Shown in pieces: positions 10,007 to 49,634 of a stretch of DNA of 64,000 nucleotides (position 1 is its first letter; each line of letters begins with the position of its first letter). Source of the stretch: Thermodesulfobacteriota bacterium. GTDB lineage: Bacteria > Desulfobacterota > GWC2-55-46. The position numbers were made by a program, and so were the translations under genes. The stretch covers positions 880,744 through 944,743 of the forward strand of contig CP129479.1 in NCBI GenBank assembly GCA_030583865.1. The letters are read 5' to 3'. The notes beneath the pieces were generated by a model, which saw nothing but the letters and a program-made list of their open reading frames with translations, made no database searches and was not told the DNA's origin.

Positions 10007-12142
10007 TTAAGCCGCGCAGAGGGGCCGGTCCCCGGGCGTAAACGGCCGCCCGGCGCCGGGCTCGGGTTTCGCGGAGGTGTTGAAGGCCTGCACATTAGTC
10101 TGAAGCACCGCGGCAAGCTCGGCGATTTCGTTGCTGGCCGCGGCTATCTGGCCAGCGCTCTGCAACGTCTCGGACGCTACCAGCGAAACGTTTTCGATAT
10201 CCGAGCTTATCTGTTCGGCGGCAGCCGACTGCTGTTCCAGGGCGACAGTTATCGACTCTATCATGGCGGTCGCGCCCGAAGACTTGTCTATTATCTTCCT
10301 GATCGTATCGCCGGTCCGGGCCGCTAGGGCTGCCCCGTCGCGCACGGCGCTTATCTCCCTGTCCATCGAGGCGGTGGCCTTATCTATGCCTTCCTGCATG
10401 CCCGTTATCACGGCGTCTATCTTCCTTGTCGCGCCTATGGTCTTCTCCGCGAGCTTTTTCACCTCGTCGGCGACCACGGCGAAGCCCCTGCCGTGGGCCC
10501 CGGCCCTGGCTGACTCGATTGCGGCGTTAAGGGCCAGGAGGTTTGTCTGGTCGGCGATGTCCTCTATTACGGTAATGATCGAGCCGATGTCCTTTGACGA
10601 GGACTCCAGCGCCATCACGATGGCGCTCGATTCCCCGGCGGCCCTGGATATGCTCTCCATCGCCTCTATAGTGGTCTCAACGATGGCCCCGCCGTCCTCA
10701 GCCGCCTCTCTGGCCTCCCTGGAGGCCTTTGCCGCGGACGCGATGTTCCTGGATATTTCGTTTACCGTAGCGCTCATCTCGTTAGAAGAGGTCGAGACCT
10801 GGGCCGCCTTGGAGGACTGAAGCCCCGTTCCCCTCTCTATCTGCAGGGAGGCCGCCGATAGCTCCTCGGCGGCTGATGAAAGGAAGCCCACAGACTGGCA
10901 TATGCGGCTTACCACCCCGTGGAAGCTTTCTATCATCCTGTTGAAGCTCTCGGCCATCTGGCCGCTTTCGTCAGCCGACGAGGACCTTACCTTTATCGTA
11001 AGGTCGCCCGTGCGCTCGACCTCGGCCATCATTTCCTTAAGCGAGCGCATGGGCTCTATTACCTTCGTATTTATAACGAACACCGCGCAGGAGCCCATGA
11101 ACGCCACCGCGGCCATGATTACCGCAGCAGTGGCGGCGTTCCGCCTCGAGGCGGCGACCTCGGGCGCTATCTTCGAGCCCACCATCCTCCCTACGGCTGC
11201 CGAGACCGCCAGGATGGAGTCGATGGCCTCGCTCGAGCTCCGTATCCATTCGTCACCGGAAATAGGATAATCGCCGGTCGGGCCGGCTTGCAGGACAGCC
11301 CTCCTCGTCTCCTCGAACCTGTCGAGGAAGACCGTCTCCAGGTTCGATATGGCTTCAAGGACTTCCCTGCTCGTGTTCGAGTCTTCCTTAAGGCGGAGTA
11401 TCGGCTTCAGGTTTATCTCCACGATGGCCCTGTACGTGTTCAAGGCCTCGATATCGCCGTTATCGAAGGCCTTGCCGGTCGATATGAGCCTCGCAAGGTG
11501 CGCCCGTTCCCTGCCCGCGTACTCGCTTACGAGCCAGACGGCGTTCTTGAGCTCGATATTATACCTGAGCCCGTCGAGGTCCGCGCTCAGGCCGGAGCCG
11601 CTGGTGAAGGCGGCCCCGCGTATATCGGAATTCGCGTCTATGTAAGAGGTTATGACCGTGCTCCATTCGCGCGCGGTGTAGTCCCCGGAGCCCGCGAGCC
11701 CGAGGGAGAAATCAGCGCTCCTCCTTGCGGACTCGAGGCGGCCAAGTGCCGTTTCCGCCCTGTCGAGCGCCGCGTCAAGCGCAGGGTTGCCGCCGTCCAT
11801 CTCAGAGAGCATTCTCGCCCTGTCGTACGCGCCTTCCGAAACCCGCCCGCTTTTTCCCCTCAGCTCGGCTATCGTCCGCATTGTATCGGGGCCGGCGGCA
11901 TTGCCGGACGAGAGGGCCATGGCGGTCACTCCGCGCTCCTTGGCCAGGTAGCCTGAGGACTCGATTATCCCGTCCACGAGGGCGTTTGCGGCTTCCATCC
12001 TGGCCATCGTCCTGCCTTCGCCCCTTGTTTGCATCAGGTTGTACAATGAAAACCCCATTAAGAGGAGCGCAAGCAGGCTGACCGTTCCGGTCAGAAATGC
12101 CTTTATGCTCATGTCTTTGAAAAATTTGCGAATTAACCGCAT
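10007..12142 (-). CDS. Methyl-accepting chemotaxis protein with NIT-like sensor
   Basis: About 711-residue transmembrane chemoreceptor. Transmembrane segment 1 (roughly residues 14-38) is followed by a large periplasmic helical region. Its start ([14 protein letters not shown]) resembles the nitrate/nitrite-sensing NIT domain. A second membrane segment near [18 protein letters not shown] leads into a HAMP linker and a signalling domain whose hairpin tip region includes [18 protein letters not shown]. The start is ambiguous: two ATGs (12145, 12142) follow GAGGGAGGG; an upstream ATG at 12184 has no ribosome site. A sigma-28 promoter lies 60-90 bp upstream. Ligand identity is not known. Confidence 0.93.
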
Positions 12143-33892: not shown

Positions 33893-34006
33893 ATGAAAAC
33901 AGTACTCGCATTCATAGCGTCGGTCTTGGGTTTCGGCGCGCTCTTTCTTGTCCTTGACCTCCTCCTCTTCAATGCTCAGGGCCTGAGCTTATTCTTCAAA
34001 GGCTGA
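33893..34006 (+). CDS. Possible 37-residue membrane protein upstream of the bd-like oxidase subunit
   Basis: MKTVLAFIASVLGFGALFLV... ending SLFFKG: one transmembrane helix then a short basic tail. Its stop lies 8 bp before the ATG of the CydA-like gene. Size and position recall tiny accessory subunits of terminal oxidases (CydX, CcoQ), though I see no sequence match. No good Shine-Dalgarno is visible. Confidence 0.5.
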   Translation: MKTVLAFIASVLGFGALFLVLDLLLFNAQGLSLFFKG

Positions 34007-34014
34007 GGGGACTG

Positions 34015-35793
34015 ATGCCGCTTCCGATGAACAAGGGCCCGATCAGAAGTTCCCTTTCAAGCCCGGCGCTCATCACGCTGATCCTTTTTCTTGCCTCGTC
34101 CGCGCTCTTTTCGTCCGAGGCGTCCGGTTCGGCGTATGCGCCCGCCCCTATTCTCGGTCCTGGCGACTACCCCTCGGTCAAGGGCTTGAGCCCGAGGCTC
34201 GCAGTATGGCTCGCCGCTCAGATGCACGTCTGGTTCGCGGCATTCGTCCTCGCGGTCCCGATATTCGTCGTGATACTCGAATTCATCGGGATGGTAAAGA
34301 AGGACGCCCGCTACGACAGGGTCGCCTACGAGTTCCTCAGGATCAGCACGACCGCGTTTTCGCTCACCGCCATAACCGGCGGCATGCTCCTTGCCGCGCT
34401 CATCGTGTTCTATCCGGGCCTCATGAAGTACCTCGCCTCGATCTTCGGCCCCACCGCGATCTTTTACGCGCTCTTTTTCCTCCTGGAAACAGCGGCCCTC
34501 TATACCTACTACTACGGCTGGAAGCGCATGGCCGAAGGCCGGTTGAAGCTCCTCCACCTTGCCGTGGGCCTCGGGCTGAACATCTCCGGGACCGGGCTAA
34601 TGTTCGTGGCCAACGCATGGGTGACCTTCATGATGACGCCGTCGGGCGTGGACGCGGCCGGCGTATTCAGCGGCAATCTCTGGGAAGCGGTCAATAACCA
34701 CCTCTGGAGCCCCATGAACCTCCACAGGTTCATAGCGAACATAGCCTACGGCGGCTCCATCGTCGGCGCGTACGCCGCGTACAGGTTCCTCGGCGCCTCA
34801 GGCGAGGAGGAGAGGGCGCACTACGACTGGATGGGCTACACCGCGAGCCTCATCGCCATAGGCGCGCTCCTGCCGCTTCCCTTCGCCGGGTACTGGCTCA
34901 CTGCCGAAATCTACGCCTTCAGCCAGCAGATGGGCATAACGCTCATGGGAGGGGTCTTTGCGTGGCTGTTCATCATACAGGCCGTAATAATAGGCGCGCT
35001 ATTCCTTGCCGCGAACTATTACCTGTGGTGCGGCTTCGGGAGGGGCGCCTACGGGGAGGCGTATCTCAAGTACGTAAAGTACATCGCCCTGGTCGTTGCA
35101 GCCTCTTTCCTCGTCTGGTTCACCCCTCATACGCTGATACTCACGCCGTCGGAGGCGCGCGCCATCGGCGGGCAATACCACCCGTATCTCGGGCCGCTGG
35201 GTCTCATGCCGGCCAAGAACACGGCCGTGAACATAATGCTCCTTTTCACGTTCCTTTCTTTTATCCTTTACAGGCGGGCCCACAGGAGGCCCGTCGCCGC
35301 ATGGGTTAAATACGGAAACGCGCTCCAGGCAGGCCTCTTCACCGCCGCGGTGGCGAACATATCCTTCCTCGGGGTCTACTACGGCTATTTCACCAACACT
35401 GTATACAAGGTGGCCTCGTCGGTGCCGCAGGTGGCGACTACCCTTTTCGTAATCCTCGCCTGCCTTGTGATCGAATGGCTAATGGGCCGTGGCGGCAAAA
35501 GAGAGGATTTCAAATGGGGGCGCATGCCCGAGAGGAGCCAGTACGCGCTCATACTCATAGCCGTCTCGTTTACCTGGCTCATGGGGTTGATGGGGTTCGT
35601 CCGTTCGGCCATAAGGCAGCACTGGCACGTATATTCGGTAATGAAGGACGCGTCGGGAGAGGCGTTCACGCCTTCCATAGCGTACGCGGCAAAGGTTGTC
35701 TCGACGGGCACGATAATCTTTCTTGCCATCATCGTATTCATTTTCTGGCTCGGCGGCATGGGGCAGGGAAAGGAGGCCGGAAAAGATGAGTAG
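34015..35793 (+). CDS. Cytochrome bd-like quinol oxidase subunit I (CydA-like)
   Basis: 592 residues, about 13-14 membrane segments. AAQMHVWFAAFVLAVPIFVVILEF resembles the first heme-ligand helix of CydA, and NLHRFIANIAYGGSIVGAYAAY resembles the second His-bearing helix; MPLPMNKGPIRSSL leads into a first hydrophobic stretch (possible signal). I do not see the Q-loop GRQPW motif of true bd oxidases. No cydB follows; instead three cytochrome c genes overlap in sequence. GAGGGG precedes the ATG by 4 bases. Probably a quinol-oxidising membrane subunit passing electrons to c-type hemes rather than an oxygen reductase; this is inference. Confidence 0.8.
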   Translation: MPLPMNKGPIRSSLSSPALITLILFLASSALFSSEASGSAYAPAPILGPGDYPSVKGLSPRLAVWLAAQMHVWFAAFVLAVPIFVVILEFIGMVKKDARYDRVAYEFLRISTTAFSLTAITGGMLLAALIVFYPGLMKYLASIFGPTAIFYALFFLLETAALYTYYYGWKRMAEGRLKLLHLAVGLGLNISGTGLMFVANAWVTFMMTPSGVDAAGVFSGNLWEAVNNHLWSPMNLHRFIANIAYGGSIVGAYAAYRFLGASGEEERAHYDWMGYTASLIAIGALLPLPFAGYWLTAEIYAFSQQMGITLMGGVFAWLFIIQAVIIGALFLAANYYLWCGFGRGAYGEAYLKYVKYIALVVAASFLVWFTPHTLILTPSEARAIGGQYHPYLGPLGLMPAKNTAVNIMLLFTFLSFILYRRAHRRPVAAWVKYGNALQAGLFTAAVANISFLGVYYGYFTNTVYKVASSVPQVATTLFVILACLVIEWLMGRGGKREDFKWGRMPERSQYALILIAVSFTWLMGLMGFVRSAIRQHWHVYSVMKDASGEAFTPSIAYAAKVVSTGTIIFLAIIVFIFWLGGMGQGKEAGKDE

Positions 35794-36307
35794 GTTCATA
35801 AAGGCCGCGGCCTTCAGCCTCTTTATCATCGGCCTCTATACCTTCTATTCGGTATTCGTGATACCGCCCATAAACCCCGGCGGTCCGCCATCCGAAAGCG
35901 CAGCCTCCGACGAGCCTGCCACGATCGAGGAGATCCTGGCCCTCGGCGAGGAGGTCTACAACGGAAAAGGGGCGTGCTCGCTCTGCCACACAAAGGATGG
36001 AGGCAGGGCCCCGGCGCTCGACGACTCGGCGCTGGTCGCGAAGGCCCGGCTTTCCACGCCGGGCTACTCCGGCAAGGCCGCGGACATCGAGAGCTACCTC
36101 TACGAGTCGCTCGTCGACCCTTCGGCCTATGTGGTTCCGGGCTACGGCGTAAGCGGCACCGAAGACCGCTTAAGCCCCATGCCCGGCGTGAGGGAAAGCT
36201 CGATAGGGCTGAACGAGACGGAAATACTGGCCGTGATAGCCTATCTCCAGAGCATCTCGGGGGTGGAGATAACGGTAGCGCTTCCGGGAGAGGGGAAAGG
36301 GGAATGA
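35786..36307 (+). CDS. Membrane-anchored monoheme cytochrome c
   Basis: 173 residues: N-terminal membrane helix (AAAFSLFIIGLYTFYSVFV), a proline-rich linker, then a class I cytochrome c domain with CSLCH and a distal Met likely in PMPGV. The ATG at 35786 has GGAAAGGAGG upstream and overlaps the CydA-like stop by 8 bp, so the two are translationally coupled; a longer frame from 35723 is not needed. Ends in ATGA overlap with the next cytochrome. Confidence 0.88.
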   Translation: MSRFIKAAAFSLFIIGLYTFYSVFVIPPINPGGPPSESAASDEPATIEEILALGEEVYNGKGACSLCHTKDGGRAPALDDSALVAKARLSTPGYSGKAADIESYLYESLVDPSAYVVPGYGVSGTEDRLSPMPGVRESSIGLNETEILAVIAYLQSISGVEITVALPGEGKGE

Positions 36308-37053
36308 GGCTACTCAAGTTCATCCTCATAAACCTCTTCTTCTACGCGCTCCTCAAGATGCCAGGCCTCCTTGCCGGGAAGCCCATCCCGTCGAGCGTAA
36401 TCACGATGTACATGTTTTTTATCATCGTGACGGTCCTGCTCGTCATGACCATCACGGACGAGGGCGCGGAAGATCTTTTCGCGCCGGCAAGGTCGCTTCT
36501 GGAGGACCCCTCAAAGGCGTTTGCCCGGAATGTCCTTTTTGCCGTTCTCCCCATAGTAGCCGCGCTCTCGGTTTATTATTTGGCCGCCGAGCCTGCCCCT
36601 CCGTTTGAGCTCCGTAGCGCGCACCCGGCCCCGCCAGGCGCGGTGCGCGCCTACGGGAAGGTCTATGAGCTTGACGGGCTTGAGAACCCGCTCCGGTCGA
36701 TCGAGAAGGAAGACCCCGCCGCCTTTAAGGAGATGGTCCGCGAGGGCGGGGAGGTCTACTTCAGGAACTGCCTTTTCTGCCACGGCGCCAAGCTCGACGG
36801 CAGGGGGCATTACGCCCACGCAATGGACCCGCTCCCAATGCCCTTCACGGGGAGCGATACCATCGCGCAGCTAAAGGAGTCCTACCTTTTCTGGAGGATC
36901 GTAAAGGGCGGGCCCGGACTGCCGAGGGAGGGCGGCCCGAACATATCATCAATGCCCGCGTGGGAGGATGAGCTTACGGAAGAGGAGGTCTGGAAGGTGA
37001 TACTCTTCCTTTACGATTACACCGGGAACAGGCCCAGGAGCTGGAAGGACTGA
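36304..37053 (+). CDS. Membrane cytochrome c with N-terminal multi-helix anchor
   Basis: 249 residues. Three hydrophobic segments occupy roughly residues 4-22, 28-46 and 76-94. A monoheme cytochrome c domain follows with CLFCHGAKLDGRG and a Met-containing SMPAWEDELTEEEVW end. The start is fixed by the ATGA overlap with the previous stop. A frame extending back to 35974 is a shadow of the upstream gene. Confidence 0.85.
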   Translation: MRLLKFILINLFFYALLKMPGLLAGKPIPSSVITMYMFFIIVTVLLVMTITDEGAEDLFAPARSLLEDPSKAFARNVLFAVLPIVAALSVYYLAAEPAPPFELRSAHPAPPGAVRAYGKVYELDGLENPLRSIEKEDPAAFKEMVREGGEVYFRNCLFCHGAKLDGRGHYAHAMDPLPMPFTGSDTIAQLKESYLFWRIVKGGPGLPREGGPNISSMPAWEDELTEEEVWKVILFLYDYTGNRPRSWKD

Positions 37054-37104
37054 GATGGCGCTCCCGAAACGCTATTTAACTGTATTACTGGTCGATTCGC
37101 GAGG

Positions 37105-37195
37105 TGTCATTCTGAGCGGAGCGAAAAATCTCGCGGCGATAATGGAATCGGCGAGCGCTGAGATTCTTCGGTCGCTACGCTCCCTCGGAATGACA
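37105..37195. repeat. TGTCATTCTGAG palindromic repeat, copy 1
   Basis: TGTCATTCTGAGCGGAGCG at one end and CGGTCGCTACGCTCCCTCGGAATGACA at the other, with ATCTCG/GAGATTCTTCG inside. Similar to 49514-49601 and to a repeat often met between bacterial genes. It lies in the gap before the diheme cytochrome and makes an open frame that spuriously lengthens that gene. Confidence 0.8.
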
Positions 37196-37225
37196 GGAAA
37201 ACGCGCGGGAAAACCGCCATATTGT

Positions 37226-38776
37226 ATGAAGCCAGTCCGCGCAATACTGATTCTATACACGGCTATTTTTTTGCCCGCTATAGCGGCCCAGTCCGCTTCG
37301 GCCTCGGACGGCGGCCCGGAAAAGGGCAGGGCTATCTACGAGAAGCGCTGCTCCTGGTGCCACGGCATCGATGGCGCGGGCGACGGCCCGGCAGCCGAAT
37401 TCCTCAACCCGCCCCCGAGGGACCTTACGTTCGGCCTGTACAAGTGGAAGTCCACCCCTTTCGACGAATACTCCCCCTCGGACGAGGACTTTGAAAAGAT
37501 GATCGCCGGAGACGGTTCTCATGCAGGCATATCCGGCTGGGACGGCATGAGCGGGACCTCGATGCCCGGATGGAAGGATGTGATGGGTCCTGAAGGGATA
37601 CGGCACATGGCCGCCTACATGAGGTCGCTTTCAGGGCTTGGCAAGGCCGAGATGCCGGCTATAAGCCTTGCCGGAAAGATACGGCCAGGCCCGGAGAGCA
37701 TCGAGCGGGGCCGCGTACTCTTCAAGGACAGGTGCGCCGAGTGCCACGGCCTTGACGGGAGGGGCGACGGCACGAAGAAGCTCCGTGACGATTGGGGCGC
37801 AAGGACCTGGCCCAGGGACCTCACAAAGGGATGGACCTTCAGGGCAGGGAGCGGCCCCGAGGACGTCTACACGCGGGTGACGGTCGGCATACCGGGCACC
37901 CAGATGCCGAGCTTCGCGGACCCGTCTTCAAAAAAGGCGATGACCGAGGAAGAGAGGTGGGACGTTGCCAATTACGCCGCCTCCCTTGACGAGCCTTCGC
38001 GAAGGCCCGTCCCGGAAACGGTGGTAAAGGCCTTAAAGGTGGAGGGGGGCCTTCCCCTCACGCACTCGGACAAATTGTGGGATTCCGCGCCCGAGGCCAA
38101 CTACTTCCTTTTTCCGCAGATAATAGCCGGGGAGAAGGCCTTTACGCCTTCGCTTGACTCGATTTCAGTAAAGGCCGCACATAACGGCAATGAGATCGCC
38201 TTCCTGCTCGAATGGAACGACCCGACGAATTCGATGCCGTGGGACCCTAAAGCCGTCGAGGTCGCCGACGGCCCGCTCTTTCCGGACGGCGCGGCTATCC
38301 AGTTCCCCGCCGGCGAGGTCAAGGGCGGACGGCCGTACTTCGGCATGGGCGACGGCAGGAAGCCGGTCGAGATATGGCATTGGAGGAGCCCAGAGGACCA
38401 GTCGGGTAAAGAGGCCTTCGGGGTGCTGGAGGCAAAGGGCTTCGAGCGCATATCCCGGAAAACTGTTTCCGAAAAAGCGGGCTTCGAGGCCAGTGGCGTA
38501 TACGAAAACGGCAGGTGGCGCGTCGTCTTTAAAGGCCCGCTAAATTATGAAAACGGCCCGGCCTTCGAAGAGGGCGCTTTCACGCCCATTGCCTTCGCCC
38601 TGTGGGACGGCTCCAACGGCGACGAAAAGGGAAAGCACGTCATGACCGGATGGGAATGGGCGAAGCTCGAAAAAGAAGCACCCGGCCCCTCATACATGTG
38701 GCCGCTCGCAGTGGGCGGCTTCGCCCTCGCAGCCGAGTTGCTCTGGCTCTTCCTAAGGAAGGGCATGAAGGATTGA
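37226..38776 (+). CDS. Diheme cytochrome c with ethylbenzene-dehydrogenase-gamma-like heme b domain
   Basis: 516 residues. Signal peptide (MKPVRAILILYTAIFLPAIAAQSASAS), then two cytochrome c domains with CSWCH and CAECH and methionine ligands in SMPGW and QMPSF. From about residue 265 comes an EB_dh-like domain: FLLEWNDPTNSMPWD, FPDGAAIQFP, YFGMGDGRKPVEIWHW. Related domains are the heme b gamma subunits of ethylbenzene dehydrogenase and nitrite oxidoreductase. A C-terminal membrane helix (PLAVGGFALAAELLWLFL) anchors it. The ATG at 37226 is chosen because the upstream in-frame ATG at 37055 would translate the palindromic repeat. Confidence 0.87.
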   Translation: MKPVRAILILYTAIFLPAIAAQSASASDGGPEKGRAIYEKRCSWCHGIDGAGDGPAAEFLNPPPRDLTFGLYKWKSTPFDEYSPSDEDFEKMIAGDGSHAGISGWDGMSGTSMPGWKDVMGPEGIRHMAAYMRSLSGLGKAEMPAISLAGKIRPGPESIERGRVLFKDRCAECHGLDGRGDGTKKLRDDWGARTWPRDLTKGWTFRAGSGPEDVYTRVTVGIPGTQMPSFADPSSKKAMTEEERWDVANYAASLDEPSRRPVPETVVKALKVEGGLPLTHSDKLWDSAPEANYFLFPQIIAGEKAFTPSLDSISVKAAHNGNEIAFLLEWNDPTNSMPWDPKAVEVADGPLFPDGAAIQFPAGEVKGGRPYFGMGDGRKPVEIWHWRSPEDQSGKEAFGVLEAKGFERISRKTVSEKAGFEASGVYENGRWRVVFKGPLNYENGPAFEEGAFTPIAFALWDGSNGDEKGKHVMTGWEWAKLEKEAPGPSYMWPLAVGGFALAAELLWLFLRKGMKD

Positions 38777-38954: not shown

Positions 38955-39158
38955 TCAGCCTTTTTGCCCTTTTCGGGAGCCGAAGGCGATGAGGGCCGCG
39001 CCTGCGGCGGCCATTGCGATGTAGAAGGGGTCGAGGGGTGAGGCGGCCCTTGCGTTTAGGAGGATGTTCACGAGGCCGAGCGAGACGAGGGCCGCGCCGA
39101 TGAACCTGGGCGCGGCGCTTTTTTTCATGCCATTTCGGTTTCCGTTAGCCCCGGTCAT
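38955..39158 (-). CDS. Small two-helix membrane protein
   Basis: 67 residues with two hydrophobic segments (FIGAALVSLGLVNILL and PFYIAMAAAGAALIAFG) and a basic C-terminus. Its ATG overlaps the radical SAM stop as ATGA, so it is the third gene of that operon. No family recognised. Confidence 0.75.
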   Translation of the reverse strand: MTGANGNRNGMKKSAAPRFIGAALVSLGLVNILLNARAASPLDPFYIAMAAAGAALIAFGSRKGQKG

Positions 39159-40366
39159 CTGCCTGCCTTTTCCCGGAGCTCTTTCATGAGCTCAGGGGTG
39201 ATCAGCTTTATTCCCTTATGCGAGGCGTATCGTTCGAGCCCCTTTTTTATCGTTGGCCTTATGAAGGCAGGCACGTTCTTGAGCCTTTCCTCGGCATCCG
39301 GGCTCCATGCGGGCGGGGCGCTTGTCTCTTTTTTAACGCCCTTCGGCTCGTGCATGCACCAGGGGTCTTCGGCCATAAGGTCGCCCCTTGTGGCAAGGGC
39401 CCTTGCCCTGCAGCCGCCGCATGAGTCCGAATATTCGCATTCCGCGCACCTGCCCTTGTAGACGGGGCTCCGCAGCGTCTTGAATGCCGCGTCGTTTTCC
39501 CATATCTCCAAAAGGGGCTTTTCCCTGAGGCTCGGCGAGCCTTCGCTTACAGGTATGTAGGGGCAGGGGGTTACAAAGCCCTCGGGTGAAATCCTCAGAT
39601 ACCCCCTGCCGGCTATGCAGCCGCTTGTGCCGCCTTTAAGGAGAGCGCTTTCGGGGTCGGATTCGCCTGCCGCCCGGACCAGGTGCGGGGCGCACCGCGC
39701 CCTGACCATTATCCTTCCCCTGTATTCCTTTTCTTTGGCGGCAATGGAGCCGAGCGCGGATTCGTACTCGGCAGGGGTGAGGTCGGTCGTCTTCTGGCCG
39801 CGCCCGGTGCAGACGAGGAAAAAGAAGTTTACCGCCCTTGCCCCCGTCTTTTCTGCGAACTCGACAAAAACCGGGATCTCATTCACGTTTTCCTTTGCGA
39901 GCGTGAACTGGAGCTGGAAGGGTAGTGAAGACCCGGACAATGCCTCTATGCCCTTTAATGTCCTTGCCCATGCGCCTTCGACACCGCGGATGCGGTCGTG
40001 GAGCGCGGGCGTAAGCGAATCGAGGCTTACCCCCGCGCCCTGCACGCCTGAGCCGAGGAGCTTCTTTATCGTTTCGCCAGTAAGAAGCGTCCCGTTCGTG
40101 CCTATGACAGGGGAGAGGCCGAGTTCCGATGCGCGGCCTGCAAGCAGGAATATGTCTTCCCGGAGTAGCGGCTCGCCGCCGGTCAGGACGAGCATGCAGC
40201 CGGGCGAGAGGTTTCCTATCTGGCCGATATAGGAGAGGGCTTCATCCGTGGGGACGGCGTCGGCCCCGGAGAGCTCGCAGGCGTCGAGATAGCAATGGCC
40301 GCAAGAGAGGTTGCACCTTTTCGTTACGTTCCATGAGACGAGGAAGGGGGGTGCGACGAGGCTCAT
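39155..40366 (-). CDS. Radical SAM/SPASM protein with C-terminal PCP_red-like domain
   Basis: 403 residues. Radical SAM cluster motif CNLSCGHC at about residues 18-25, with TGGEPLL. The SPASM-type auxiliary cluster region has CAECEYSDSCGGCRARAL and CMHEP, plus an earlier SGCIAGRGYLRISPEGFVTPC. The last ~55 residues (W.PDAEERLKNVPAFIRPTIKKGLERYA... ITPELMKELREK) match the small PCP_red helix domain found in light-independent protochlorophyllide reductase and some heme-pathway enzymes. Closest functional guess is a heme-related maturase of the NirJ/AhbC/AhbD kind. ATGA overlap with the upstream stress-protein gene. Confidence 0.88.
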   Translation of the reverse strand: MSLVAPPFLVSWNVTKRCNLSCGHCYLDACELSGADAVPTDEALSYIGQIGNLSPGCMLVLTGGEPLLREDIFLLAGRASELGLSPVIGTNGTLLTGETIKKLLGSGVQGAGVSLDSLTPALHDRIRGVEGAWARTLKGIEALSGSSLPFQLQFTLAKENVNEIPVFVEFAEKTGARAVNFFFLVCTGRGQKTTDLTPAEYESALGSIAAKEKEYRGRIMVRARCAPHLVRAAGESDPESALLKGGTSGCIAGRGYLRISPEGFVTPCPYIPVSEGSPSLREKPLLEIWENDAAFKTLRSPVYKGRCAECEYSDSCGGCRARALATRGDLMAEDPWCMHEPKGVKKETSAPPAWSPDAEERLKNVPAFIRPTIKKGLERYASHKGIKLITPELMKELREKAGR

Positions 40367-41538
40367 CCTTCGATATTCTTTCTGACCTTACGCATGAATT
40401 CAGGCGTTATCTCCGCCACAGCCTCTTTCCGCGCGGCGTCCTCGACCATGTTCTTCACGATGCCGCTTGCGAACTTCGGTATGCGCGAGAGGATCTCCAG
40501 GGCGTCTTTTGTCCATGCCGGGGCGTCTTTCGGGGCAACGGGCACGGGTGCGGACTCTCTCGCCGAGACGAGCACGTGGCAGGGGACTTCCCTCAGGCAG
40601 TTCTCGGCGGTCGAGCCTATGTCCAGGCCTTCGACCGCGTGCGCGCCGGTCCTCCCGAGGACGAGCAGGAACGGCCTGGCCTTTCGCGCGTATTTGATTA
40701 TCTCGTCCGAGGCCTTCCCGGAAAGGAGGGCCGTTTTTATTTTTTTCCCTTTTGAGGCCGCCAACCTTTCGGCGGCCTCAAGGTGGCCCCTGTAGATGCG
40801 GGCCAGGCCCTTGTCTATTATCTCGTCATGGAGCCTTTCCTGCTCCCTGAACCTGAAGAGCCTTCCGGCCTCTTCGGTAAGGATGCCTGCGATCGAACGG
40901 AACGCCGCCTGGTGGAACACGGGGTCAAAGGCGCTAATTGCCTCCACTTCGAAGCCGAATACGTCCGATAGTTCCAGCGCGGTAAGGAGGCCGCCGAAAG
41001 AGGCAGGGCTTCCGTCTATGGCGGCTATTATGCCGCGCCCGTCCCCGACTCGCTCCTGCGAGACGAGGACGTCTTTCCGGACCCTCCGGACGACCCTCTC
41101 GCAAACGCTCCCGATCCTGCTCGTGCCGGTCCTCCCGAGGCCCATAAGTCCCATTACGACGAGGTCGTAATCGGCTTCGCCGGCCTCCTTGACTATTTCC
41201 TCGAAGTTTTTCCCTTCCCTGCTTACGCCTCCGGCATCAAGACCCGAGCATTTTGCCCTGGCCTGGAAGACGGCCATGTACGAGTCGGATATTATCTCGA
41301 GGCCCCTGGTTATGAGCGTGTCATGGACCTCGCGCGTGTTCTTGAGAGCGTCCTCTTTCCTGTAGGCCTCGGGCAGCCCGTCCTCCATCTCGATAAAGCG
41401 GGAATTGTGGAGCCTGGCCGCGTAAACGTGGCATCCGGCAAGGCGGGCATCCGATGAGCGCGCAAGCGCAATCGCCAGGTCGGCCCCGGCATTGGCGTGG
41501 TCGGAATTATCAAGGCAGACGAGTATATTACGGTACAT
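40363..41538 (-). CDS. Tandem universal stress protein with C-terminal PCP_red-like domain
   Basis: 391 residues: two UspA domains (about 1-150 and 160-325), each with an ATP-binding type loop (MGLMGLGRTGTSRIGS and LGRTGAHAVEGLDIGS). The last ~50 residues (PAWTKDALEILSRIPKFASGIVKNMVEDAARK... ITPEFMRKVRK) resemble PCP_red and the end of the neighbouring radical SAM protein. Fusion of USP to this domain is unusual. First gene of a three-gene operon coupled by ATGA overlaps. Confidence 0.85.
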   Translation of the reverse strand: MYRNILVCLDNSDHANAGADLAIALARSSDARLAGCHVYAARLHNSRFIEMEDGLPEAYRKEDALKNTREVHDTLITRGLEIISDSYMAVFQARAKCSGLDAGGVSREGKNFEEIVKEAGEADYDLVVMGLMGLGRTGTSRIGSVCERVVRRVRKDVLVSQERVGDGRGIIAAIDGSPASFGGLLTALELSDVFGFEVEAISAFDPVFHQAAFRSIAGILTEEAGRLFRFREQERLHDEIIDKGLARIYRGHLEAAERLAASKGKKIKTALLSGKASDEIIKYARKARPFLLVLGRTGAHAVEGLDIGSTAENCLREVPCHVLVSARESAPVPVAPKDAPAWTKDALEILSRIPKFASGIVKNMVEDAARKEAVAEITPEFMRKVRKNIEG

Positions 41539-42633: not shown

Positions 42634-43890
42634 TCAGAAGAGGGACGGATGGTGCTCCGCGTCCTTCTCTTCCGTGGCCTTGTGGCCGAAGATGCTGATG
42701 CGCCCGAACTCCCCATCGAAGCCGGGGGTTATGGAAATTTCGCCCTCCCTTACTTTCATTATGGCTGAGGCGACCCTGTCTCCGGCGGCCTCCCGTATCT
42801 CGCTCTCTCCCATGTCCAGAAGGTAGCTGAACTCGGGAGCCAGCGCCGTAAGCCTCCTGTATTCGCGCTGCACTTTCTGGCTACCTACCCCTGCCCCGAT
42901 GGACTCGGACAGTACCTCCTCCAGCGGCACGAGGCGCCTTGCCGGTATGGCGTTCTCCGGCCGCGCTCCCTCCGGCCTGTCGGCAAGCTCCTCGACCCTT
43001 GAGAGAACCCCTACTGTAAGGGGCTTGGCGCAGGAGGGGCAGACGCCTGAAAGGGCCTTTGTCTCAGCGGGCTTGAAGCTAACGCCGCAGGCCCTGTGGC
43101 CGTCCGAGTGGTACTTGCCTTCCTCGGGGAAGAACTCCACGGTGAAGAGGAACCTCGACTTGTCCTTTTTTACAAGGATATCCCTTATTTCAAAATAGTC
43201 CATAGGGCAGTCGAAGACGTTCGCCTCCCTGCCGAGCTTGGATGGGGAGTGGGCGTCCGAGTTGGATATCAGGGCTATACGGTCGAGGGCCGAGACCCTC
43301 CAGTTCATCTCCGGGTCCGAGGAGAGCCCTGTCTCCATGGCGTGTATGTGCCTCGAATATTCCCCGAAGCATTCCTCGATGGAGTCGAAGCCCGATTTCG
43401 AGCCGAAGATGGAGAACCAGGGCGTCCACGCGTGCGCAGGCACGAGCATCGCCTCTGGCGAGGCGTCGAAAACGATCTTCGCGAGGTCTTTTGCCGAAAA
43501 GCCGAAAATCGGCCTGCCGTCCGAGCTTATGTTGCCCAGGGACTTGAACGCGGCGTTCATCTTCCTGGCCGCCTCAATGCTCGGAGAGAAGATGAGGCTG
43601 TGTACCTTCCTGGTCCGTCCGCCCTGCGAGAAGATATTGGATACTTCCGCGGTAAGCATGAAATGGACACGGTCTTCGCCCGGCTTCCCCTTGAGCGCGA
43701 AAAGGCCGGTCCCGGCCGGTTCGAGCTTATCCTCTATGGAGGCGAAATGGGCCGGGTGGGTGAAGTCGCCGGTGCCCACAAGACCTATACCCTTGAGCTT
43801 CGCCCAGGACGCAACTGATTCGAGGGACATCTCCCTGCTCGTGGCCCTCGAATATTTGCTGTGTATGTGCAGGTCGGCTATGATGCGCAT
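42634..43890 (-). CDS. Endonuclease Q family PHP-domain nuclease
   Basis: 418 residues. The PHP metal-binding motifs start at once (ADLHIHSKYSRATS) with GTGDFTHP, AHAWTPWFSIFGS and SNSDAHSPSKLG. A zinc finger-like CGVSF...CPSCAKPLTVGV lies around residues 258-285, as in endonuclease Q, which nicks DNA 5' of uracil, hypoxanthine and xanthine. Well known in some archaea, patchier in bacteria. No clear Shine-Dalgarno before the ATG. Confidence 0.88.
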   Translation of the reverse strand: MRIIADLHIHSKYSRATSREMSLESVASWAKLKGIGLVGTGDFTHPAHFASIEDKLEPAGTGLFALKGKPGEDRVHFMLTAEVSNIFSQGGRTRKVHSLIFSPSIEAARKMNAAFKSLGNISSDGRPIFGFSAKDLAKIVFDASPEAMLVPAHAWTPWFSIFGSKSGFDSIEECFGEYSRHIHAMETGLSSDPEMNWRVSALDRIALISNSDAHSPSKLGREANVFDCPMDYFEIRDILVKKDKSRFLFTVEFFPEEGKYHSDGHRACGVSFKPAETKALSGVCPSCAKPLTVGVLSRVEELADRPEGARPENAIPARRLVPLEEVLSESIGAGVGSQKVQREYRRLTALAPEFSYLLDMGESEIREAAGDRVASAIMKVREGEISITPGFDGEFGRISIFGHKATEEKDAEHHPSLF

Positions 43891-49488: not shown

Positions 49489-49634
49489 GAAGCTCTGATT
49501 AATTCTCGTTTCTTGTCATTCTGAGGGAGCGTAGCGACCGAAGAATCTCGTAACTTGCTGATTTCTCAATTACGAGATTCTTCGCTACGCTCAGAATGAC
49601 ATACGTTTGCGAATCAATCAGAGATTCCCTAAGA
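49489..49634. repeat. TGTCATTCTGAG palindromic repeat, copy 2, in a larger inverted repeat
   Basis: Core 49514-49601 (TGTCATTCTGAGGGAGCG ... CGCTACGCTCAGAATGACA) with inner TCTCGTAA / TTACGAGA. The core is wrapped by a second pair of arms, AGGAAGCTCTGATTAATTC and GAATCAATCAGAGATTCCCT, as if one palindrome had entered another. Confidence 0.82.

Follow-up and report, generated by a model that had tools for sequence, protein, structure and literature searches.

A conserved CydB-less bd-like operon with three c-type cytochrome genes and a small upstream membrane protein in a Thermodesulfobacteriota genome

The operon and its conservation

The window analyzed here is a stretch of 64,000 nucleotides from a Thermodesulfobacteriota bacterium (NCBI GenBank assembly GCA_030583865.1, contig CP129479.1, positions 880,744 to 944,743), whose genome is complete, a single contig of 2.75 Mb. 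It carries an operon built around a CydA-like (bd-like) protein, followed by two cytochromes c and a diheme cytochrome with an EB_dh domain (Table 1). The original prediction had described these four genes as one coupled unit, and both the overlaps (8 bp between the CydA-like and cytochrome c1 genes, ATGA between those for cytochromes c1 and c2) and the domain matches confirm it. The last gene does encode two CxxCH motifs, the EB_dh domain and a C-terminal helix forming the tail anchor, but its predicted start is doubtful. The open frame reaches back to 37055 (a 573-residue open reading frame [ORF]) through an interspersed repeat with copies at 37160-37195 and 49514-49549; because the 5' extension contains this repeat, the start at 37055 is probably an artifact, and the start that yields a signal peptide is at 37226. 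The span originally marked out opened at 33893, which is the start codon of a short ORF left undescribed there; its stop lies 8 nt upstream of the start codon of the CydA-like gene.

Table 1. Genes of the bd-like operon and its conserved neighbors (positions within the window)
Feature	Position	Strand	Evidence
37-amino-acid (aa) single-helix membrane protein MKTVLAFIASVLGFGALFLVLDLLLFNAQGLSLFFKG, proposed fifth subunit	33893..34006	+	Hidden Markov model (HMM) matches
CydA-like polytopic b-type cytochrome (bd-like), 592 aa, no Q-loop	34015..35793	+	PF01654 E=5e-21; profile alignment; ligand census
Cytochrome c1, membrane-anchored monoheme, 173 aa	35786..36307	+	CxxCH and Met132 conserved
Cytochrome c2, membrane-anchored monoheme, 249 aa	36304..37053	+	PF13442 E=5e-9; CxxCH and Met217 conserved
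Diheme cytochrome c with EB_dh domain and C-terminal tail anchor (alternative NxrC type), 516 aa	37226..38776	+	PF09459 E=1.2e-22; two cytochrome c domains
Radical SAM/SPASM protein with C-terminal PCP_red domain, resembling NirJ2/AhbD	39155..40366	-	Conserved neighbor
Universal stress protein (Usp) with C-terminal PCP_red domain	40363..41538	-	Conserved neighbor

Relatives were sought in the GTDB, with one genome per species, and at least 586 relatives of the CydA-like protein were found; the locus counts given below rest on the best 80 of these loci (L056-L135), "with room" meaning that enough flanking sequence was available. The closest named relative among the matches listed is from Deltaproteobacteria bacterium GWA2_55_10 (L056, 81% identity), and the hosts include Delta-, Alpha-, Beta-, Gamma- and Zetaproteobacteria, Nitrospirota and Nitrospinota. 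Downstream of the CydA-like gene, cytochrome c1 was found at 77 of 77 loci with room, cytochrome c2 at 66 of 66 (fusions included) and the EB_dh gene at 63 of 64. As had been expected, the four genes keep their order as a conserved unit, and the absence of this order among relatives, which the original prediction had named as evidence against it, is not what we found. L061 (downstream of 11480) is the sole locus with room where the EB_dh gene was not detected after the two cytochromes c, and at L129 (28-1917) the CydA-like gene is divided over two ORFs, by a frameshift or an assembly error. Many proteobacterial loci have a second set, 35-44% identical, upstream of the main one (in the upstream half of L074-L094, L101, L107, L109, L110 and L112), and in the tree one fully supported branch divides its CydA-like proteins from those of the main set. 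In one further subclade, cytochrome c2 is fused to the EB_dh protein.

The 37-aa protein was searched for with an HMM built from 13 sequences and run against 33,025 ORFs, the building sequences being counted among the positives. It is encoded directly upstream of the CydA-like gene at 68 of the 80 loci (E<0.05), and five weaker matches bring this number to 73; the only other matches at E<0.05 in these loci are two partial ones away from the CydA-like gene (L106:9695-9829 and 10425-10514). The HMM did not detect it in two Nitrospinota loci with room (L116 and L118) and gave no match beside the diverged upstream set. In its consensus, a hydrophobic helix that contains an Asp precedes QGLSLIF. 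Synonymous changes outnumber replacement changes against the three closest relatives in the genus (6/4, 6/2 and 11/3), while two more distant members show no synonymous excess (8/12 and 8/14). We propose that it is a fifth subunit. It seems to be unreported, as no mention of it turned up in the papers examined, which we take as a slight hint of novelty, and it is a concrete component to seek in cryo-EM maps and proteomes.

The bd-like subunit and the EB_dh protein

As the original prediction had suggested, we compared the bd-like protein with CydA, looking at its ligands and Q-loop. When profiles of 100 family members and of 32 canonical CydA sequences were aligned locally, two segments matched, residues 60-265 with Escherichia coli CydA 8-214 (E=7e-11) and 534-592 with 448-506 (E=1e-3), so that the Q-loop (K252, E257) has no aligned counterpart. 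Among the main copies, the equivalents of H19 (H71, in all 73 sequences with a residue there), E107 (E158, 79/80) and H186 (H237, 80/80) are kept, and R448 and W451 of the RQPW motif match R534 and W537. On the other hand, E99 is replaced by Tyr (Tyr151) in 100 of 100 family members, W441 by Gly (Gly527) in 100 of 100 and E445 by Ser (Ser531) in 98 of 100, positions 441 and 445 being extrapolated a few residues beyond the second aligned segment. As these three residues are invariant in the 32 canonical proteins, the oxidase site is, judging from the sequences, not kept in its canonical form. Of the canonical heme ligands, then, H19 and H186 are kept, E445 is replaced and M393 is not alignable; the family has extra near-invariant histidines at 181, 269, 372, 389 and 538. 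A by-eye pairing of W294/E298 with W441/E445 and of M273 with M393 was dropped after the profile alignment. CydA chains were the best PDB matches of an AlphaFold2 model (mean pLDDT 76), but the whole-structure superposition was poor (TMq 0.4, root mean square deviation 15-23 Å) and served only as family support.

Compared with CydAB and its small subunit CydX, the system shares the N-terminal CydA helices with the equivalents of the three residues named above, the RQxW motif and a small one-helix protein encoded alongside. It differs in lacking CydB and the Q-loop, in the three replacements and in its extra C-terminal helices, and the 37-aa protein is encoded upstream, with no demonstrated sequence relation to CydX. 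We also considered whether CydB could be fused into the C-terminal half of the CydA-like protein, and discarded the idea as no profile match was obtained; canonical CydA and CydB likewise show no sequence match to each other, so this null leaves a relation at the level of the fold possible.

The diheme part of the EB_dh protein is closest to 6h5l_B and the EB_dh part to EbdC (2ivf_C) and NxrC (7b04_C), with a TIGR03477 score of 112 bits, under the cut-off of 169.85. The EB_dh domain is shared with EbdC and NxrC, but here the same polypeptide also includes a diheme cytochrome c and a tail anchor, and no alpha (Mo) or beta (FeS) subunits adjoin its gene; nor is any dedicated molybdoenzyme encoded close to the operon. 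We assume that EbdC ligates its heme by Met and Lys and that the positions aligned with M108 and K201 are the heme ligands. The former is Met in 42 of 65 sequences and His in 14, and the latter is mostly His (59/65) instead of Lys.

Genome context and partner genes

The predicted absence of cydB was borne out at two levels, with no PF02322 match in the complete genome and CydB in none of 42 good genomes of class-level relatives, 37 of which have a match to the CydA-like protein. A cydB elsewhere that is always paired with this subunit, the other outcome that the original prediction had named against itself, did not turn up. The CydA-like protein is the sole member of the CydA family in the genome and hence present in single copy, with no tandem second set. 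COX1-family (heme-copper) genes are present, some with strong matches, together with a cytochrome b complex (PF00033 E=5e-69) and NarGHJI, which has a cytochrome c upstream, so no extra oxidase is required. The cytochrome b complex also rules out the bd-like complex as the only complex III of the genome, where ActD was not found. Three molybdopterin matches were obtained, namely NarG (TIGR01580 above cut-off), NuoG and a second NuoG-like protein; none of them qualifies as a periplasmic nitrite oxidoreductase (NXR). One further EB_dh protein is encoded in the genome, not near any molybdoenzyme.

Two neighboring genes recur across phyla. Among the 52 loci whose downstream flank reaches 7.5 kb or more, homologs of the radical SAM/PCP_red protein were found in 26 and of the Usp/PCP_red protein in 29, and a protoporphyrinogen-oxidase-like gene is also present in 14. 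The family matches of the radical SAM protein are under the curated cut-offs. Dedicated heme modification by this linked enzyme is possible, but such a role is only hinted at. A 418-aa ORF (42634-43890) with no Pfam match has conserved counterparts close to the cluster at six deltaproteobacterial loci.

A different kind of partner was found in five loci from two proteobacterial classes, alpha and gamma (L126, L127, L128, L131 and L134), where an iodate-reductase-like cluster lies directly downstream. It consists of two CCP_MauG proteins, a Rieske protein whose leader is Tat-like (IdrB-like; at L134, TIGR02694 scores above its cut-off) and an AioA/IdrA-type molybdoenzyme, in the order P-P-B-A instead of the idrABP1P2 order of the published iodate reductase cluster. 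The Denitromonas iodate-reductase cluster was described without a quinone oxidoreductase (PMC8692401), and the bd-like complex is a candidate for this role with the predicted iodate reductase of those five genomes. No NarG/NXR-type enzyme adjoining the cluster was found with a NarG query in the available flanks of the 80 loci.

Precedents and possible function

The prediction implied that the cluster was new, but nitrite oxidizers and anammox bacteria were already known to carry it. In Nitrospira moscoviensis, alt_NxrC_2, two cytochromes c and bd-like_3 are similarly arranged, with bd-like_4 nearby (PMC6606698), and the same cluster is known from Nitrospina and from Kuenenia and other anammox bacteria (PMC3578206, PMC8026999, PMC6423088), the Kuenenia genes being kustd1709-1712 (PMC6423088). 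All of them combine a CydB-less bd-like CydA with two membrane cytochromes c and a diheme EB_dh protein that carries a transmembrane helix. The differences are the tandem copies of Nitrospira versus the single copy here, the conserved 37-aa ORF recognized upstream here, and the genome itself, of deltaproteobacterial type, with NarGHJI and no periplasmic NXR. The authors working on nitrifiers and anammox bacteria noted that the Q-loop is absent and proposed that the cluster serves in reverse electron transport, as a terminal oxidase or as an NXR anchor (PMC6606698, PMC3578206, PMC8026999). The system is known in outline, and the window holds a member from a genome without periplasmic NXR; what we add is the breadth of the distribution, the 37-aa protein, the census of residues in the bd-like subunit and the partner operons of iodate type.

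We give an even chance to the reading that a CydB-less complex, probably of five subunits, exchanges electrons between the quinone pool and periplasmic redox proteins. At this level, the original proposal of a quinol-to-cytochrome c or reverse electron-transfer complex is still the best reading, and reverse electron transport had been put forward earlier for the nitrifier cluster (PMC3578206, PMC6606698). A periplasmic partner would dock on the EB_dh domain, and electrons would pass through the two c hemes of the same protein and the hemes of the two anchored cytochromes c to the b hemes of the bd-like core, whose number and ligands are presumed, and these would exchange electrons with the quinone pool at a putative quinone site. 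In lithotrophs, the complex would on balance reduce quinone at the expense of energy (reverse electron transport), and with a periplasmic reductase as its partner, e.g., an iodate reductase, it would oxidize quinol. The conservation of the gene order and of three c-type cytochrome genes over several phyla argues for this reading, as does the retention of the cluster by anaerobic anammox bacteria (PMC3578206; PMC6423088). The altered oxidase site, the other respiratory genes of this genome and the five loci with an iodate-reductase-like cluster also speak in its favor. Several points weigh against it. The known quinol residues sit in the Q-loop, which is absent here, and no quinone site was identified. 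The cytochrome b complex of the genome makes a second link between quinone and cytochrome c non-obligatory, and the iodate connection is confined to one subclade, the one in which cytochrome c2 is fused to the EB_dh protein. Related CydA-like proteins have been classed as putative cytochrome c-oxidizing O2 reductases, OR-N (PMC10839748), and the function is deduced from genes.

The main rival, which we regard as possible but rather doubtful, is a terminal oxidase of the bd-like or OR-N type that would take its electrons from cytochrome c or the EB_dh protein on the periplasmic side and reduce O2 in the core. The conserved H71, E158 and H237 speak for it, and so do the OR-N proteins (classification of Murali et al.) discussed as such putative oxidases (PMC10839748, PMC12342949), which resemble the protein studied here in the features compared: they are of the CydA superfamily, lack the quinol site and CydB and are linked to cytochromes c. 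A point of difference is that this genome has no CydA' partner subunit. However, the equivalents of E99, E445 and W441 are replaced in nearly all sequences, and the bd-like protein of the conserved cluster was reported to carry Gln in place of one CuB His and Phe in place of the His of the high-spin heme (PMC8026999). The anaerobic lifestyle of anammox bacteria and the COX1-family oxidases of this genome also fit it badly. Alternatively, the cluster could be the anchor and wire of a dedicated periplasmic oxidoreductase, one in each lineage (NXR in the case of nitrite oxidizers), with the bd-like protein as a scaffold devoid of quinone or O2 chemistry and electrons moving only between c-type cytochromes. 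The discussion of alt_NxrC as an anchor point for NXR (PMC6606698), the EB_dh domains known as heme b subunits of type II dimethyl sulfoxide reductases and partner genes that vary by lineage would agree with this, but the invariant His equivalents of the canonical heme ligands are hard to square with a scaffold, and a dedicated molybdoenzyme is missing from the surroundings of the operon here; we regard this reading as improbable.

The original prediction also suggested that the complex feeds an MtrAB-like extracellular electron conduit. Such a pair does lie ca. 14 kb upstream (PF11854 E=3.5e-132) and is near the operon in four of the six genomes of the genus, but only inside the genus. Unrelated genes separate it from the operon, MtrB-type genes are not among the recurrent neighbor families of the 80 loci, and MtrB is present in only 12 of the 42 good relatives, versus the 37 with the CydA-like protein. 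We consider it very unlikely that the operon is part of this conduit. A second MtrB/PioB porin gene is located elsewhere in the genome (C1:2020191-2022095).

The bd-like/alternative NxrC cluster is an unexplained part of the respiratory chains of nitrite oxidizers and anammox bacteria, and it has so far been read as machinery for nitrite oxidation. Its occurrence in hundreds of genomes, including one without periplasmic NXR (this one), those of iron-oxidizer relatives (Gallionella, Mariprofundus) and those with iodate-reductase-like operons, suggests a more general function. Tentatively, it may be a widespread quinone:periplasmic-cytochrome oxidoreductase with an overlooked 37-aa subunit, possibly with a modified heme made by an AhbD/NirJ-type enzyme, that would serve many lithotrophic and periplasmic respiratory systems, nitrite oxidation being only one of them.

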